Assembly (NCBI RefSeq): GCF_000379025.1
Contig: NZ_KB900618.1
Span: 1-64,000 of the forward strand
Source: Orenia marismortui DSM 5156
GTDB lineage: Bacteria; Bacillota; Halanaerobiia; Halobacteroidales; Halobacteroidaceae
Length of the DNA: 64,000 nucleotides
Direction of reading: 5' to 3'
Below are positions 27,242 through 39,432 of this stretch, one piece after another (the first letter of the stretch is position 1; the number at the start of each line of letters is the position of its first letter). The notes beneath the pieces were generated by a model, which had not been told where the DNA came from, did no database searches, and was given only the letters and a program-made list of their open reading frames with translations. The translations under genes were made by a program, and so were the position numbers.

Positions 27242-27587
27242 AGTATAGTTTCTTATTAGATTATTTTTAGCAGCAGAAAAACTATTAAAACTAACTAGCG
27301 TATGACTTTTATTTATTATCAAAATAAAAAAGAAGAGTTTAAATTATGCCTTAACAAAGAGATGAAATACACTTATGTTAAGGCATAAATTTTAGATAAG
27401 AAGGAAGTGACTAAGCATGGCACAAGAAAATTTTTATACTGAAGTATATCCTGATATTATTAAGCAATGGAAGTTTTATTTGAATCTATTAGACTTATGA
27501 AATTGAGATATAGATGTGAAAGATACCCCCCTGGATATGGTATAAAATTTGATGAAGTTAAGTTTAATTATTTCTAGGAGGTTGATA
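27242..27587. other. Intergenic with 13-bp perfect hairpin and a short reading-frame remnant
   Basis: TTATGCCTTAACA (27344-27356) is fully complementary to TGTTAAGGCATAA (27376-27388), with a 19-base loop. A 27-codon frame (27417-27500) follows GAAGGAAGTG and reads MAQENFYTEVYPDIIK then stops; it may be the start of a lost gene. No intact gene is seen. Confidence 0.5.
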
Positions 27588-28235
27588 ATGAACAGCAAAG
27601 TAATCTTAGTACATGGATATAAGAAAAACCAGAATGATATGTTAGTTTTAAAAGAAAATTTGGAAGATTTAGATTATGATGTGATATTGGTTGATCTACC
27701 TTTAACCTTTAAAAAGATTGAGGCTTGTAATTCTATCTTCAAACAGAAAATAGAAAAAATCATATCTAATTTAGATCAGAATGAAAAAATTAGTTTTGTT
27801 GGTCATAGTACAGGTGGATTAATCATAAGATGCTTTTTATCTAATACAGAGTATCAGGGTAGAGTTCATAGATGTGTTTTAATAGCTACTCCAAATCAAG
27901 GAAGTCAATTAGCTAATATAGCTGCTAAATTTGCTAATATATTCATCAATATTTTTAAAACCTTGGACTCATTAAGATCTAGTAATGTTCAAAAACTGTT
28001 TTTAGAAGATATAGCTACTATTGAAGTAGGAGCTATTGCTGGTAATAAGAATAATTTATTTTTAGGAAAGTTACTGAAAAATGAAAATGATGGTAGAGTT
28101 CAAGTTGATTCTGTAAAGTATAATGGATTGAAAGATTTTATTGTTATCCCTTATGGTCATAAAGAAATCCACTATAAATTTAAAACAGCAGAGTTAGTAG
28201 ATTCCTTTCTAAGGAAGGGGAAATTTAAAAGATAA
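27588..28235 (+). CDS. Alpha/beta hydrolase, lipase/PGAP1-like
   Basis: The 215-residue protein has the lipase fold: KVILVHGYKKNQND at the start (oxyanion region), the nucleophile elbow ISFVGHSTGGLIIRCFL near 75, and IATPNQGSQLA just after. NDGRVQVDSV near 177 and a histidine in YGHKEIHY near 197 match the acid and base of this group. It probably cleaves an ester; the substrate is unknown. ATG 27588 follows AGGAGGTTGAT, so an upstream in-frame ATG at 27549 is not used. Confidence 0.8.
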   Translation: MNSKVILVHGYKKNQNDMLVLKENLEDLDYDVILVDLPLTFKKIEACNSIFKQKIEKIISNLDQNEKISFVGHSTGGLIIRCFLSNTEYQGRVHRCVLIATPNQGSQLANIAAKFANIFINIFKTLDSLRSSNVQKLFLEDIATIEVGAIAGNKNNLFLGKLLKNENDGRVQVDSVKYNGLKDFIVIPYGHKEIHYKFKTAELVDSFLRKGKFKR

Positions 28236-28321: not shown

Positions 28322-29428
28322 CTAATATTTTAATTTAACTAAATATGGATCTTTAGAAAATGAAATAAAATTAAATAAGAAGAGGATATGGTCCCAACTT
28401 TCATTCATTAAAGCTGCTATACTCCCATTATAATAGCGAAGATCTATTATTTCTATCTGTGCATAGTGATTTGTCAAGAAAGGAATCATGCTATTTGCAT
28501 AAGAATCTTTGAAGACTAAAAGTTTTTTTCTATCTGTTTTAGAATTTAAATGACTCTTAATGGAAGCTCTACTAGGATTGTTATGAAGAAACATAGCATA
28601 CTTATCACGTCCATCTGCAAAGCTTAAATCATAGATAGATGATTTTAATACACCATCTACATAAAAGTTAGCATCTAAGTGTGGATCATACCAAATGAAA
28701 TCGGCCTTTCCCTTCTTCTTTTTTGCAGCAGAGTAGAAAGTACCATAAAAGTCTTCAATGACTTTAGGAGTGAATTTTTCCAATGGCACCGCTAAAAATC
28801 CTACTTCTTTGGAGTAAGCTTCATAAGCGTAGTATGCTCCTGTGCTTGTCCAGTGGTGATCCAAGCGGTAATAAATATATTTGTTAGTATGTTTTTTAAG
28901 TGCTTGGTATAGATCTATGAATCTTCTGTCGGACAAATTTAGCTCCTCTTTTAGCCATTGAAGCCATTTAGCCTGATTGACATTATATAGACCTATAGGT
29001 ACTAGATCTTCTAAAATAGTATAGCTGTTTGGGGCAATTGCAACATAAATGTTCTGATCTTTATAAATTTGAAGAAAGCTATTTAATGTTTCAACATTAG
29101 TAAAAAAATTATCTGCTAATGTCAAATATTTATTAAATAAATATCCCTTTTTTCCAAAAATAATATTATTATTTTCTTTTTTAAGTAGTGCTTCTTCAAA
29201 AAAAGCTTTTAACCCCATCCATTGATTTCTAAAGATAAATTGATCTGCTACATAACTTTCGTATTTTTCTGTATATCTTCCACTAATCAAATCATTCCAG
29301 TGAAAGTCAGGTTTTTGAGACAAATAACGATTTTCAAATTCTGAAAATGACCGGGGGGGAAGCAATAAATTAACTATAGTTATAATTCCTACAACCATGG
29401 CAAATATCAAAATAGTAAAGTGTTTCAA
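28322..29428 (-). CDS. DHHW/AlgX-like acetyltransferase-associated protein
   Basis: The 368-residue protein has an N-terminal signal anchor (about 4-24) and an SGNH-like AlgX/DHHW domain. The FENRYLSQKP segment near 31 and YRLDHHWTSTGAYYAYEAY near 192 carry the family's name-giving DHHW motif. FKDSYANSMIPFLTNHY near 310 holds the serine block. Such proteins accept acetyl from an MBOAT partner and transfer it to an extracellular polymer. The start is TTG, after AGGAGGTGAG. The MBOAT gene lies upstream, now separated by a hairpin repeat. Confidence 0.88.
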   Translation of the reverse strand: MKHFTILIFAMVVGIITIVNLLLPPRSFSEFENRYLSQKPDFHWNDLISGRYTEKYESYVADQFIFRNQWMGLKAFFEEALLKKENNNIIFGKKGYLFNKYLTLADNFFTNVETLNSFLQIYKDQNIYVAIAPNSYTILEDLVPIGLYNVNQAKWLQWLKEELNLSDRRFIDLYQALKKHTNKYIYYRLDHHWTSTGAYYAYEAYSKEVGFLAVPLEKFTPKVIEDFYGTFYSAAKKKKGKADFIWYDPHLDANFYVDGVLKSSIYDLSFADGRDKYAMFLHNNPSRASIKSHLNSKTDRKKLLVFKDSYANSMIPFLTNHYAQIEIIDLRYYNGSIAALMNESWDHILFLFNFISFSKDPYLVKLKY

Positions 29429-29454
29429 ATTCCACTCACCTCCTAAAGCAGTAT

Positions 29455-29590
29455 TAAAGTGACAGTAACGAGTGACTAGTAACAGGTGACAAGTTAAGTT
29501 GTTTACTGGTTACTCGTCACTTGTCACTAGTTACTGAATTGTCGCAATATCTATCTATGAAGGCATATTTAAATTTAATTCTTAAGTTGG
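29455..29590. repeat. Hairpin repeat family, variant copy
   Basis: The right part (TGTCGCAATATCTATCTATG, then TATTTAAATTTAATTCTTAA) matches the right arms of copy 1. The core differs: it is built of AGTAAC and AGTGAC words in opposing arms, with CAGTAACGAGTGACTAGTAA facing its near complement. It lies between the MBOAT and DHHW genes. Confidence 0.65.
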
Positions 29591-29612
29591 AAGATTATAA
29601 TTCCAATAATCT

Positions 29613-30986
29613 CTAAAACCTAAAATATAAGAATGGATTAAAGGTCGAATCTACCAAATAACTTACTGAAATTAAAAATATTATCATTAAGGCAATTCCA
29701 ACTAAGATGAATCGTTGTGCATATCGTTCATATACTTTTTTGATCCAATAAGTTGAAAATAAGATAGCTAATAGAAAGGTTATCCCATAATTACTAAGGG
29801 CGTATAAATAATCTTGACCTCTGTCAAAGGAGAACATCTTATGTATGTATAGCCATAGCTGAGTAATGTTTGGTGTAGCGAAAATTACCCAGCCAAAGAT
29901 TATAACTATCATAGCATATATATGGGAGAAAATTTTATGATTGTAAAGCCATTCTAATAAAAATTCTTTTTCTATTATTAGAAAGAAGGCAAAATAAAGC
30001 CCCCATAAAATAAAATTCCAACTGGCACCATGCCAAAATCCAGTTAAAGACCAAACAATGAACAAATTTAATCGTTGTCTTTTAACCCCTTTGCGATTCC
30101 CACCAAGGGGAATATACAGATATTCTCTAAACCAATCACCAAGGGTTATATGCCATCTTCGCCAAAACTCGGTAATACTTGTAGACAAATAAGGGAAGTC
30201 GAAGTTTTTAGGAAATTGAAAACCAAGCATCTTGCCAAGACCTATGGCCATAAGGGAATAACCACTGAAATCAAAGTAAATTTGAAAGGTATACCCGATA
30301 ATCCCCAGCCAAGCCATAGCCATAGATACATGAGTAACTCCTATTGCTTCTATATCTTTCCAAAGCATACCGATAGCATTAGCAATAATTACTTTACTGG
30401 CAAGTCCCATGATAAAATAGCGAATTCCTTCGCTAATTTGCTCTAATTTTATCTTGCGATCTTTCAGTTCTTTCTGTATATCTACATATTTTACAATTGG
30501 TCCTGCTATAAGCTGTGGAAACAAACATACATATGCTCCAAAATTAATAATATTCTTTTCAGCTTTTACTTTTCCTTTATACACATCTAAGGTATATGAC
30601 ATTGTCTGGAAAGTATAAAAACTAATGCCCAAAGGAAGTGTTAGTCTTAGAGGGGTAAATTCTGTATTTAGTACACTATTTAAATTAGCAATGAAAAAAT
30701 CAATATATTTAAAAGTCATCAGAAGACCTATATTAGTGAAAAGAGAGAAGCCTAAAAATAAGCGTTTCACCCAGAGTTTTTGAAAATAATCAATAGCATT
30801 AGAAGCCGTGTAGTCCACTAGGATAGAAATAAGCATAATTAAGATATATCTTGGTTCACCCCAGGCATAAAAAATCAAACTGATGATAAGTAACACCCCA
30901 TTTTTCATAAAATAGGGTGTTATATAATAGATAGCTAGTGCAAAGGGTAAAAATCGAAATAAAAATAACAAGCTACTAAATACCAT
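29613..30986 (-). CDS. MBOAT-family O-acyltransferase (AlgI-like)
   Basis: The 457-residue protein has about ten membrane segments. MBOAT hallmarks are FDFSGYSLMAIGLGKMLGF near 236, EFWRRWHITLGDWFREYLYI near 268 with PLGG after it, and the catalytic-histidine region LTGFWHGASWNFILWGLY near 315. AlgI-type proteins pass acetyl groups across the membrane to modify exported polysaccharide. GAGGACTTAG precedes the ATG, which is one base beyond the stop of the upstream DUF4358 gene, so the two are translationally linked. Confidence 0.92.
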   Translation of the reverse strand: MVFSSLLFLFRFLPFALAIYYITPYFMKNGVLLIISLIFYAWGEPRYILIMLISILVDYTASNAIDYFQKLWVKRLFLGFSLFTNIGLLMTFKYIDFFIANLNSVLNTEFTPLRLTLPLGISFYTFQTMSYTLDVYKGKVKAEKNIINFGAYVCLFPQLIAGPIVKYVDIQKELKDRKIKLEQISEGIRYFIMGLASKVIIANAIGMLWKDIEAIGVTHVSMAMAWLGIIGYTFQIYFDFSGYSLMAIGLGKMLGFQFPKNFDFPYLSTSITEFWRRWHITLGDWFREYLYIPLGGNRKGVKRQRLNLFIVWSLTGFWHGASWNFILWGLYFAFFLIIEKEFLLEWLYNHKIFSHIYAMIVIIFGWVIFATPNITQLWLYIHKMFSFDRGQDYLYALSNYGITFLLAILFSTYWIKKVYERYAQRFILVGIALMIIFLISVSYLVDSTFNPFLYFRF

Positions 30987-30987
30987 T

Positions 30988-31533
30988 TTATTTCACTAAG
31001 TCCTCTATGGCTTTCACACCAATTTGAACCTGTTCTTGAGCAAATTCAAGTCTTTCTTCTTCAGTTAGTCCTTCCTTGTCGTTAATTTTACCAAGCATTA
31101 AAAAGAATACATAATTTTCAATGACTAAAACCTTTGCTGCTTTCACCTTGGCCATATTAGCAGGATATTGCAAGCTGTTGTTGACTAATTCTGAATGGTA
31201 TGATCTTAAAGCGTTGGCTACTTGATTTACAGCATCTTTATCTTCCTTTACTTTTAACCCAATAAAGGTGTCAACATGTGCACTCATCATAGGCCCTTCG
31301 GCAATATCTTCTTTTACTAAATTCATTGGAATACCATAAACCTTTGCTAAAACATCTTCATTAATAGGCATTCGTGGGAGATAATTTTCCCCATATGCTT
31401 CTTTAACAGATGTATGTGCCTTTTTTAAGAAATCTTCTCCTAAAACTACTTTCTTTTCTGAAGTACATGCTACAATTATGAATGTCATTATTAAAACCAT
31501 TATTAAGCTAATTATCAATTTGATTTTTTTCAT
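30988..31533 (-). CDS. DUF4358 lipoprotein
   Basis: The 181-residue protein has a lipoprotein signal with VACT at residues 21-24. It matches DUF4358, a family of small lipoproteins commonly found beside MBOAT/DHHW pairs: YGIPMNLVKEDIAEGPMMSA near 71, MSAHVDTFIGLKVKEDK, and VENYVFFLMLGK-like text near 138. It is the first gene of the three-gene O-acetylation operon. AAGGAGATATT precedes the start. A role in presenting or sensing the modified polymer is inference. Confidence 0.8.
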   Translation of the reverse strand: MKKIKLIISLIMVLIMTFIIVACTSEKKVVLGEDFLKKAHTSVKEAYGENYLPRMPINEDVLAKVYGIPMNLVKEDIAEGPMMSAHVDTFIGLKVKEDKDAVNQVANALRSYHSELVNNSLQYPANMAKVKAAKVLVIENYVFFLMLGKINDKEGLTEEERLEFAQEQVQIGVKAIEDLVK

Positions 31534-33830: not shown

Positions 33831-34667
33831 ATGAAATTAACTGTTCTGATTGATAATAATACTTTAACGGATAGATATTTTATTGGTGAACCAGGTATTT
33901 CTTTTTTTATTGAAAGCGAAGGAATTAAATTATTATTTGATACAGGATATTCTGACGCTTTTATTCAGAATGCAAGTAAAATGAACTTAGATTTATTAGA
34001 TATTAATTACATAGTACTATCTCATGGTCACCTTGACCATAGCTGGGGTTTAGAGCCTCTTAGTCGGAGATATATGGAGGCTGAAATCGAAGGTCAAATT
34101 AACAAAATTCCTAAGTTAATAGGCCATCCACTTATATTTGAAGCAAAAAGTATAGCTGGAACTCCTATAGGAATGAATTTATCCCAGGAGTTTCTTGAAG
34201 ATATATTTACTTTGAAGCTAAGTAAAGATCCTATCTGGTTAACAGAGAAGTTAGTGTTTTTAGGTGAGATTCCACGTAAGTTCAAATTTGAAGCTCAAGA
34301 TCCTATTGGAGTTAGAAAGTCAAGTAACTTAGAAGTTGAAGATTATCTTTTAGATGATTCAGCTTTAGCATTTATTTCAGCAGATGGTTTGGTAATTATT
34401 ACTGGATGTTCTCATTCAGGTATTTGTAATATAATTGAGTATGCTAAAGAAATTACCAAAGTCAATGAAGTAAGTGAAATTATCGGAGGCTTTCATCTTT
34501 TAGACCCTGAGGCTAAGAAAATGGAAGAGACTAAAGATTATCTAGCCAAGTTAGACTTAACTGCATTATATCCTTGTCATTGTACTGATCTTAAAAGTAA
34601 ATTTGAATTAGCTAAAATAGTGGAAATTAAGGAGGTAGGAGTTGGACTTCACTTAGAATTTAATTAA
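33831..34667 (+). CDS. MBL-fold metallo-hydrolase
   Basis: The 278-residue protein has the metallo-beta-lactamase fold. KLLFDTGYSDAFIQNA near 37 comes first, then the zinc motif VLSHGHLDHSWGLEPL near 63 (HxHxDH). ITGCSHSGICNIIEYA near 189 and IIGGFHLLDPEAKKM near 215 supply the remaining ligands. The pattern is that of the subgroup near methanopterin-synthesis/RNase-Z-like hydrolases seen in many anaerobes. The substrate is unknown. It lies 35 bases after the cupin gene and both may form one unit. Confidence 0.87.
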   Translation: MKLTVLIDNNTLTDRYFIGEPGISFFIESEGIKLLFDTGYSDAFIQNASKMNLDLLDINYIVLSHGHLDHSWGLEPLSRRYMEAEIEGQINKIPKLIGHPLIFEAKSIAGTPIGMNLSQEFLEDIFTLKLSKDPIWLTEKLVFLGEIPRKFKFEAQDPIGVRKSSNLEVEDYLLDDSALAFISADGLVIITGCSHSGICNIIEYAKEITKVNEVSEIIGGFHLLDPEAKKMEETKDYLAKLDLTALYPCHCTDLKSKFELAKIVEIKEVGVGLHLEFN

Positions 34668-34832: not shown

Positions 34833-35324
34833 TTAAAAACGAATCCCTGAGGTAAACATAAATCCTTCTATGGAAAGGGGGATTAAATCTATACCAAAAT
34901 GCTTATATTCAAATCCAATAGTTGGCATTATAGCAGGAAATGTCTTTAACTTATTTATAAAGCCATTATATTTTCCATCTTCATCATCATAACCATGGGC
35001 AATACCTGCAGTAATCTTCCAGCGTATCTTCAGATCTCCTTTTTTATAAAGCTGATATGTCTTACCAGTATAAATATACCAAGAAGGCTGATAAAATGAA
35101 TTTTCAAAGGATGCAAAACCATAAAATTTAGAATTAGATAAATGATATTCAAGACTAACTAAATTTGGATCATTATTATAAAAGTCATTACTTCCCCAGT
35201 GTTGTGTTATGATATCAGTCTGTAGATAAAAATGGCCATATTCTGTTGGATCAGTTTCTTTTGCAAAAGTGCTTGTGGTTATAAAAGAGATTATCAAAAA
35301 AAGTAAAACTGCTTTTAATCGCAT
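34833..35324 (-). CDS. PagP-like outer-membrane beta-barrel protein
   Basis: The 163-residue protein has a signal peptide (1-21, ending TFAK), eight likely beta strands and a C-terminal FTSGIRF with final phenylalanine. Segments resemble the PagP-like group: QTDIITQHWGSNDFYN (a possible catalytic His), YGFASFENSFYQPSWYIYTG (N-S where PagP has D-S), WKITAGIAHGYDD and FPAIMPTIGFEY. PagP moves palmitate to lipid A. With the altered active site, activity is uncertain. It supports an outer membrane in this organism. Confidence 0.65.
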   Translation of the reverse strand: MRLKAVLLFLIISFITTSTFAKETDPTEYGHFYLQTDIITQHWGSNDFYNNDPNLVSLEYHLSNSKFYGFASFENSFYQPSWYIYTGKTYQLYKKGDLKIRWKITAGIAHGYDDEDGKYNGFINKLKTFPAIMPTIGFEYKHFGIDLIPLSIEGFMFTSGIRF

Positions 35325-35655
35325 TATCTATCTACTCCTTATATATTTTTATGCCAAATAATTTCTCATATTTCTCGAGTATATGAATAACTAACTAATT
35401 TACAAATTGAAATAGTTATGAGTAATTATCTAACTATTTCTATATTCTATACAAATAACTCGTTTCCTTTAAAGTGATAATTATATGCAAGTTTGGAGTA
35501 AATCAATTTCTTAAAATAATAATTATTTTGGCATTTTATAATATTTTTAGATTAATTAGATTGATTTCTATGTTAATATAAAAAATAGTATAAAAAGAAG
35601 GATAATTATTATTTAGAGAGGAATATTATATTTGTATAAAAATAGGAGGGGTTAG
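35325..35655. other. Divergent AT-rich intergenic region
   Basis: It separates the minus-strand barrel gene from the plus-strand lipoprotein gene, so promoters for both must lie here. I see no clear -35/-10 pair, repeat or hairpin. Confidence 0.4.
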
Positions 35656-36624
35656 ATGATAAGTAATAAGAGAAAACTATTAATTATTGGAGTTATTTTA
35701 GTATTATCACTTAGTTTGGCAGGCTGCTCTAGCAGTACTGATGATTTAGATAATAATGCAGGAGATGATAGCCAAGTTTGGAATTCTTATGAGCATTCTA
35801 GTTTTGCTGTTACATATGCACCAAGTTGGATGCCTTATGAGTTTGAAGATGTTGTTAGCGAAATTAGTGATTCAATTGAAAGTAGTGAGCAATTTGCTGA
35901 TATAAAGGATCAATTTGATAAACTTGAAGAGGAATATAATATTAAATTTAATGAAAATACAAGTGTAATTGAAGAGATAATCTATTCAGCTGGAGAGCTG
36001 TACCATGAGGTTTATGACTTGAATCGAAAGTTTGCTAATTCTAATCTTGAGGATATATTTACTGAAGAGGATCTTAATAGACTAAGGGAAGATTATAATC
36101 TGACTGATAAAGAAATTAAACTTATTGTTAGTGAAATGCTTCATTCTCTTTGGTTAGACTTAGGTAAATTAAAGGCTTATACGGAAGCTCTTGAAAAAGA
36201 TTTGGATGAAAGTGCTTTAATACTTCCTAAAAAATTAGATCTTGAATTTCCAGCTGCTGGTGAAGAATTGCAGGAAGATGAATTGATAAAGAATGAGTTT
36301 TCATTTCAGGCTTTCAGATATACTAAAGATGATTTGATTGATCTTGGCTTCGATATGCCCCAAAATAAGGAACAATTCTATCAAGCAATACAATTATATG
36401 CAGAACAAGAATATCCAAATAGTGAACATAGTAAGTTTGATATGAATGAGAATGATTATTCGGCTTATAAGATAACAGCAGAAGTTAATGGTAGAAAGGT
36501 TACTAATATAGCTATTTATAAAGATGGCAAAGCTGGTTGGGTCTATTATCAAGGAACTATTCAGGGATATGATAATAATTCTGAGATAGCAGATAAGATG
36601 GCAAAGTCATTTAAATTTAAATAA
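35656..36624 (+). CDS. Lipoprotein of unknown function
   Basis: The 322-residue protein has a lipoprotein signal with LAGC at residues 22-25 (so the mature protein begins with lipidated Cys25). A serine/aspartate-rich linker and a mostly helical acidic body follow (SYEHSSFAVTYAPSWMPYEF near 48, then long Glu-rich helices). The C-terminal 80 residues may form a small alpha/beta domain (YSAYKITAEVNGRKVTNIAI). I recognise no family. AGGAGGGGTTAG precedes the ATG, and a terminator follows. Confidence 0.65.
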   Translation: MISNKRKLLIIGVILVLSLSLAGCSSSTDDLDNNAGDDSQVWNSYEHSSFAVTYAPSWMPYEFEDVVSEISDSIESSEQFADIKDQFDKLEEEYNIKFNENTSVIEEIIYSAGELYHEVYDLNRKFANSNLEDIFTEEDLNRLREDYNLTDKEIKLIVSEMLHSLWLDLGKLKAYTEALEKDLDESALILPKKLDLEFPAAGEELQEDELIKNEFSFQAFRYTKDDLIDLGFDMPQNKEQFYQAIQLYAEQEYPNSEHSKFDMNENDYSAYKITAEVNGRKVTNIAIYKDGKAGWVYYQGTIQGYDNNSEIADKMAKSFKFK

Positions 36625-38223: not shown

Positions 38224-39432
38224 GCTTCATTGTAAAATCAAATTGAACAAAATAAAAATAGCCATAGGGCACCAAACTGTAATATAATTAAATCACCACA
38301 AAATAACCAGTTACAGGAGGGTGCACACTATGACTTACTTAAATGATACACCAAAATCCCGAAAAAATAAACACCTAAATGCTTATGAACGTGGTCAAAT
38401 TGCATTATTACATTCCGAAGGAATGAATCCAAATGCTATTGCAAAACGTTTAGGTAGAGCTTCTAATACCATTAGAAACGAACTAAAACGTGGTACAGTT
38501 TCTCAAATTAAAGCTAATAAAAAGATTATGGTCTATTACCCTGACACTGGTCAAAGAGTTTATGAATCTAATCGCAAGAATTGTGGTCCTAAATTTAAAC
38601 TTTTGCAATGTGAAGAGTTCATTGATTATGTTATAGAACAGTTCTACGAAAAAGGACATTCTCTTGATGCTATATGTGGTGCAGCAAAACTTCATAATAA
38701 ATTTCCAAAGCCAGAGATGGTATCTACTAAAACGCTTTATAACTACGTCAACGCTGGATTATTGACAATTAAAAACATTGATTTACCTTTGAAGCTTAAG
38801 CGTTCTTCAAAAAGAAAGCACACTAAAAATAATAAAAAGAAGCTTGGTACAAGTATAGATCAACGCCCTGAAAGTATTAATAATCGTAGTGAGTTTGGTC
38901 ACTGGGAAATTGACACTATGATAGGCAAAAAGACTAAAAATGAATCAGTTTTTACTTACTATGACAGAACGTATGACTCGTAAAGAAATTATTCGTAAAA
39001 TCCCTGCCAAGACTGCTCAAGCAGTTCAAGATGCTATTTTAAAGCTCGTTAATGAAGCAGGAGATTGTTTTCCAAAAGTATTTAAAAGCTTCACTTGTGA
39101 TAATGGCTCTGAGTTTGCTCAAATGTCATTTTTAGAGCAAATTAGTGATACTAAAGTATACTTTGCACATCCATATTCATCATGGGAAAGAGGAACTAAT
39201 GAGCGTCATAATGGTCTTATAAGACGCTTTATCCCTAAAGGTAATAGTCTAAACCAATTCTCTATTGAATCTATTGCTAGAGTCCAAAACTGGTGCAATA
39301 CTTTACCAAGAAAAATCTTAGATTACCTAACCCCTGATGAAATATTTGAAGATAAATTAAAAAAAATTCTTTATGACTAAATAACCAAATTATTACAGTT
39401 TGAAAATGTTCAATTTATTATTGCAATTTAAG
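38224..39432 (+). mobile_element. IS30-family element, copy 2
   Basis: It is 1209 bp and nearly identical to copy 1. It is flanked by a 13-bp duplication TTTTCTTTTTAAG (38211-38223 and 39433-39445). It landed just downstream of the HD-GYP terminator and directly beside hairpin repeat copy 3. Confidence 0.88.
38330..39380 (+). pseudogene. IS30 transposase, frameshifted
   Basis: Compared with copy 1, one extra T lies in the run after GAATCAGTT (near 38948-38954; five T instead of four). The first part stops after about 217 residues and the rest continues in another frame from about 38940. One further change near 39362 turns a C into A. The break separates the first DDE aspartate from the others, so no active transposase is expected unless the ribosome slips. 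Confidence 0.88.

Follow-up and report, generated by a model that had tools for sequence, protein, structure and literature searches.

A putative PagP-type outer-membrane barrel of Orenia marismortui groups with the divergent Pseudomonas aeruginosa branch of PagP

What does a PagP-like gene do in a Firmicute, and does an asparagine-serine pair (N-S) at the place where PagP has aspartate-serine (D-S) mean that the active site has changed? These questions were raised by a sequence-only reading of a 64,000-nt stretch of the genome of Orenia marismortui DSM 5156 (contig NZ_KB900618.1, positions 1-64,000; hereafter, the window), whose premise that PagP relatives are known mainly from Proteobacteria is a fair one. 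The gene, which we annotate as that of a PagP-type outer-membrane beta-barrel on the basis of phrog_3600, hhalign and a structural model, occupies positions 34833-35324 of the minus strand and encodes a protein of 163 amino acids plus a stop codon from an ATG start (hereafter, the window protein). A Shine-Dalgarno-like AAGGAG (35335-35340, minus strand) lies 10 bases upstream of the ATG. Residues 1-21, ending in TFA (35262-35324, minus strand), form a probable signal peptide, as judged by hydropathy and a model helix at residues 2-20, with the cleavage site read by eye; hydrophobicity is strong over residues 3-17, where the Kyte-Doolittle mean is 2.28. Also on the minus strand are the codons for His42 (35199-35201), which aligns with the E. 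coli PagP histidine, and Asn75-Ser76 (35097-35102), which align with the E. coli PagP Asp-Ser, and the last barrel strand, FTSGIRF (residues 157-163; 34836-34856; model strand 154-162), which ends in a C-terminal Phe. We take His42 to be equivalent to His33 of E. coli PagP in mature numbering, and Asn75-Ser76 to Asp76-Ser77. The signal peptide, the 163-residue size, the histidine, the N-S pair and the FTSGIRF end are all found where the sequence-only reading had placed them.

The conservation of this open reading frame in relatives, its ribosome-binding site and its signal peptide confirm that it is real and not a chance occurrence. Its length alone is weaker evidence, given that when the window was shuffled 20 times at the mononucleotide level, one shuffle contained a stop-free run of at least 163 codons. 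What argues against chance is that 16 other sequences are 33-60% identical to it and that 26 alignment columns, His42 and Asn75 among them, are invariant. Promoter prediction around the gene revealed no excess over shuffled sequence (8 predicted promoters versus 8.6 in shuffles).

The family is present in a minority of Halanaerobiia. Of 61 genomes searched, namely the window's own and relatives of it, 15 carry the family, twice in the window's genome and in one other; a profile search found it in 15 of 59 class genomes, for a total of 17 copies, none of which has an internal stop. Among the class genomes with completeness of 90% or more and contamination of 5% or less, 13 of 47 have it. The remaining 44 of the 59 class genomes, some of them incomplete, produced no match. 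Two named relatives are from Halanaerobium. In the 17-row alignment of the family (A1), from which open reading frames L003, L001 and L011 were omitted as the window itself or duplicates, the histidine and the asparagine are invariant (17/17 each), and the residue that follows the asparagine is Ser in 11 members and Thr in 6. Several rows of A1 lack the first Met or the last Phe because of the coordinates chosen for extraction; all 17 full-length members, the window protein included, end in Phe. Only 2 of 299 genomes were matched in a phylum-wide search, namely the window's own and one of the same order, so within the phylum as sampled the family was seen nowhere else. PagP homologs are reported to be lacking in Veillonella (PMC10665443).

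The window protein is not a canonical PagP. It matches nothing in Pfam, nor is the PagP family PF07017 among those that the 17 members hit; across 21 genomes PF07017 never exceeds its cut-off, and its one weak match (E 0.56) is at another gene in G004. Likewise, the window protein does not match the NCBIfam PagP model (NF008271), its sole NCBIfam match being noise (histidine-tRNA ligase, E 0.2). Profile-profile comparison with hhalign places canonical PagP at some distance. The class alignment alone gave 0.5% against canonical PagP, while a broad 23-row alignment, from which an unrelated phage row, a split Halomonas gene and near-duplicates had been removed, gave 16.3% (E 0.0016, single comparison) against E. 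coli PagP alone and a weak 41.9% (E 2.7e-4, single comparison) against six canonical sequences. Controls with OmpX (0.4% over 38 columns) and OmpW (1.0% over 17 columns) are comparable like for like with the 16.3% value, since each of these is a single sequence. In the comparison of the broad and canonical alignments, the histidine and the Asn/Asp-Ser pair are in register.

A much closer relationship is found with the PagP of P. aeruginosa. The profile PHROG 3600, described as an antimicrobial peptide resistance and lipid A acylation protein PagP, matches the window protein with an E value of 4.6e-12 and, with the limit relaxed to E 10, matches 16 of the 17 members (best, 3.6e-16) but not the remaining one. 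E. coli PagP matches the same profile (E 1.3e-6); thus, PHROG 3600 bridges both branches of PagP. Plasmid records contributed three matches, from Halomonas, P. aeruginosa (annotated as pagP, palmitoyltransferase) and Methylibium. The Halomonas sp. PA16-9 relative (L024:2785-3467) is divided between two reading frames in the plasmid record as deposited. The P. aeruginosa sequence that we compared, WP_003082771.1, is the one annotated pagP in its plasmid record, and we take it to be a PagP of the PA1343 type. Aligned to it with hhalign, the 17-row family alignment gave 99.8% with E 1.3e-28 (single comparison) over 139 columns, and within this profile alignment the window protein is 31% identical to P. 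aeruginosa PagP over 139 columns. The family consensus and P. aeruginosa PagP have in common LQTS..T.H, NN.Q.L.GLEY and F.NS..Q, and P. aeruginosa PagP likewise lacks an NCBIfam match. A Variovorax relative is flanked by one gene annotated as 4-deoxy-4-formamido-L-arabinose-phosphoundecaprenol deformylase and another annotated as phosphoethanolamine-lipid A transferase, neighbors that fit a role in lipid A modification. The window protein is an unremarkable member of the divergent PagP branch of P. aeruginosa, met in a phylum where it was not expected.

The predicted structure is consistent with this placement. An AlphaFold2 model built with nine sequences (three plus six viral relatives; the three alone gave a pLDDT of 44.4) has a pLDDT of 79.2, a pTM of 0.71 and eight main strands, at residues 31-44, 56-61, 66-74, 80-95, 98-110, 128-140, 143-150 and 154-162, with a short extra strand at 47-51. 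Confidence is low, near pLDDT 60, for residues 1-30, 41-50 and 111-130. The sequence-only reading had specified beforehand that a fold other than an eight-stranded barrel would refute it, and no such fold was predicted. Its description of the protein as PagP-like also holds up: in addition to the profile matches to phrog_3600 and P. aeruginosa PagP, Foldseek places PagP 1thq (E 4.2e-5) at the top of its PDB matches, ahead of PagP 3gp6 (E 1.1e-4), with TM scores of 0.58-0.64 and rmsd values of 4.4 and 8.0. Ail, OprF and OmpA come after these at E < 1e-3, and a PagP NMR structure ranks 14. VIA-align does not separate PagP (Z 13.3 and 12.7) from OmpA, OprF and designed barrels (Z 13.4-14.1) or from PagL, so the fold alone is no proof of an enzyme. 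The model thus supports an eight-stranded barrel and favors PagP over other barrels only mildly. It contains no clamp helix before strand 1: the only helix of at least four residues spans residues 2-20, in the signal peptide, strand 1 begins at residue 31, and residues 21-30 have a mean pLDDT of 62.

We now turn to the N-S pair. The site of canonical PagP consists of His, Asp and Ser, which have catalytic roles, and in six aligned canonical sequences the histidine and the Asp-Ser pair are invariant (6/6). The proposal that N-S represents a changed active site is not borne out, because the P. aeruginosa, Variovorax and Methylibium relatives and three Vibrio phage relatives have N-S too; nor is the pair unusual, given the asparagine in 17 of 17 aligned class members. 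In alignment A3, D-S is found only in E. coli PagP, one class row has N-T, and an unrelated phage row is gapped. N-S thus marks a branch of the family, of which it is the ordinary site, and does not point to lost or new activity. It is compatible with activity, since P. aeruginosa PagP, a reported lipid A palmitoylator, carries it. This branch spans Gamma- and Betaproteobacteria, phages and Halanaerobiia, which indicates that it stands on its own and is no oddity of P. aeruginosa.

The host genome contains one lpxC, clustered with kdsA, kdsB, lpxK, lpxB, lpxA and fabZ, all over their NCBIfam cut-offs, which bears out the earlier description of the host as a diderm Firmicute. An lpxI-like gene in the cluster falls under its cut-off (121.8 versus 400 bits), and of the 10 proteins of the cluster that were scanned, 2 had no match at E 1e-5, including a possible acyltransferase. 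Models of MlaA and PldA found no match at E 0.001 in 13 genomes, so another device against stray phospholipid would be useful. Halanaerobiales have LPS and are reported to lack the Mla system (PMC10665443), and the Halothermothrix orenii genome paper, by its own description the first for the order, identified LpxF, a 4'-phosphatase, as the sole lipid A modification system (PMC2626281). For Halobacteroides lacunaris TB21, a strain that may lack the gene, the lipid A is reported to contain only 12:0(3-OH), 10:0 and 10:1, with no palmitate (PMC5532643). In a diderm Firmicute, a PagP-type barrel offers a concrete candidate for the control of lipids in the outer leaflet.

The contexts of the 17 copies were compared using mechanically chosen open reading frames. 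Neither direct neighbor of the window copy (33831-34667 and 35656-36624) recurs in the 16 other stretches. A lipase-like alpha/beta-hydrolase gene is present in the window at 27549-28235 (plus strand), with relatives in Halanaerobium (L052:1231-1905 and L053:1181-1843), and lies 6-7 kb from the PagP-like gene in 3 of the 17 stretches. At 28322-31533 (minus strand), genes for a DHHW/AlgX-like protein, an MBOAT O-acyltransferase and a DUF4358 protein stand in a row that looks like a polysaccharide O-acetylation set, and at 38321-39380 (plus strand) are two overlapping open reading frames with HTH_38 and integrase core matches, which look like an IS30-type transposase split over two frames. All nine Halanaerobium copies (family f3; L048 and L050-L057) adjoin a gene of the UDP-glucose dehydrogenase type (one checked by Pfam). 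Six of the nine stretches carry a Wzz-type gene (one checked by Pfam), and six of the nine copies lie next to a protein of approximately 370-470 amino acids with a signal-like start; of two such proteins checked, one weakly matched DUF2330 and one matched nothing.

Four copies have a different context: this genome's second copy and those of G001, G002 and G004 lie beside cobO (checked by Pfam in two of the four) in co-directional runs of cobalamin biosynthesis or uptake genes (G000:C1:527832-528299, which is L041:7829-8341; L045:8810-9313; L046:7772-8293; L047:7910-8563). A cobalamin riboswitch is found upstream on the same strand in all four, at approximately 3 kb in G004 and approximately 15-19 kb in the other three, and the four copies form one clade with support of 95/98 (94/92 in a tree with two phage sequences added). 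The riboswitch scan, which covered the non-Halanaerobium stretches, found none in L042, L043, L044, L062 or the window. From gene direction, we infer that the B12-linked copies are co-transcribed with the cobalamin genes. One scenario, speculative and unlikely on present evidence, is that in part of the Halanaerobiia a PagP-type acyltransferase joined the cobalamin regulon and would be made together with a TonB-dependent corrinoid receptor when B12 is short, remodeling the lipid around that receptor; the window copy would then be the B12-independent paralog, on which a lineage without detected MlaA or PldA may rely for lipid asymmetry. The B12 linkage of these sister copies is the sole potentially novel part of our analysis, and it does not concern the window copy.

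Phage-borne relatives are also found. Vibrio phage members with the histidine and N-S are the autolykiviruses L029 and L037-L039, as well as L031 and L033. Viral contigs searched with three phage proteins yielded 1, 4 and 1 loci; no relative was confirmed there when the query was the window protein, the class alignment, P. aeruginosa PagP or the Methylibium protein. Vibrio phage pv27 was rejected as a relative: its match is weak, is one of six near-identical matches, and is to a tail-tube-like protein. Its row was removed from alignments A4 and A7 and remains in A3. The first match of the model in BFVD is a Salinibacter phage protein, and phages of halophiles might move a PagP-like gene. In a tree rooted on Methylibium, P. 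aeruginosa and Variovorax are nested within the class with support of 88/91 (not starred), with Methylibium and Variovorax flagged as long branches; with two phage sequences included, all 17 class sequences group in a single clade (61/65). Neither tree resolves the direction of transfer.

Taken together, these results lead us to regard the window protein as a probable phospholipid:lipid A acyltransferase that belongs to the divergent PagP branch of P. aeruginosa and is exported as an outer-membrane barrel. Once exported by means of its signal peptide, the protein would form an eight-stranded barrel in the outer membrane. A phospholipid misplaced in the outer leaflet would enter this barrel, and the site formed by His42 and Asn75-Ser76 would move one of its acyl chains onto a lipid A hydroxyl, thereby clearing stray phospholipid and tightening the leaflet. 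The family, signal, barrel, conserved site and host lipid A genes in this proposal were computed; catalysis, the acyl donor, the acceptor and the chain length are inferred. Palmitate is doubtful as the chain for this clade, which may use another. Counting against this reading are the palmitate-free lipid A of H. lacunaris, the 44 of 59 genomes without a match, the Thr for Ser in 6 of 17 members, the single member without a phrog_3600 match, the weak match to canonical PagP and the VIA-align tie, and this function leaves the cobalamin linkage of four relatives unexplained.

Some of the same observations suit a PagP-derived barrel that acts on outer-leaflet lipids without being a lipid A palmitoyltransferase, whether by adding a C10 or C12 chain to lipid A, by moving a chain to a phospholipid headgroup or by hydrolyzing stray phospholipid. 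The short non-hydroxy chains and missing palmitate of the Halobacteroides lipid A (PMC5532643), the Ser/Thr variation among members and the lack of MlaA and PldA matches in 13 genomes, together with the Mla system being described as absent from Halanaerobiales in PMC10665443, are in its favor, but the site is identical over the branch and the P. aeruginosa relative reportedly adds C16, leaving this reading somewhat unlikely. We find it improbable that the protein is a small non-enzymatic barrel with a structural or ligand-binding role, serving as an accessory to corrinoid uptake in four relatives and as a paralog with a related role in the window. Four of the 17 copies do adjoin cobO in runs of B12 genes that have a cobalamin riboswitch upstream, the order in G004 is riboswitch, TonB-dependent receptor, TonB, PagP-like gene and cobO, and the modeled fold ties with those of non-enzymes; however, even these four copies keep the catalytic-type residues, and the window copy has no cobalamin neighbors, and a scan of the entire window at the gathering threshold found no riboswitch. 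Finally, the Thr for Ser in 6 of 17 members and the patchy distribution could be read as signs of decay or inactivity in a relative that has persisted by chance, but 26 columns are invariant among sequences only 33-60% identical to the window protein, 0 of 17 matches contain an internal stop and the ribosome-binding site is good, all of which makes decay very improbable.

The window protein can be compared with three known groups of proteins. Canonical enterobacterial PagP (PF07017; PDB 1thq and 3gp6) shares with the window protein the eight-stranded barrel and an aligned His and Ser. It differs in that the window protein is only 15% identical to E. coli PagP, has Asn in place of Asp, does not match PF07017 and lacks the N-terminal amphipathic helix, a feature that one paper calls characteristic of PagP and its homologs (PMC2887491). 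The PHROG 3600 phage proteins, from Vibrio phages including one autolykivirus, share the profile and, in the three aligned, the His and N-S, but they are phage-borne and only 18-26% identical to the window protein. P. aeruginosa PagP, although from another phylum, has the signal peptide, size, His and N-S motif of the window protein and, as read from sequence length, is likewise too short for a clamp helix before strand 1. It has GYRGEY where most class members have GYDDE.G.Y and ends in Leu, whereas all 17 class members end in Phe. P. aeruginosa PagP is reported to put palmitate (C16) on lipid A (PMC10865791, PMC7916210, PMC13265386).
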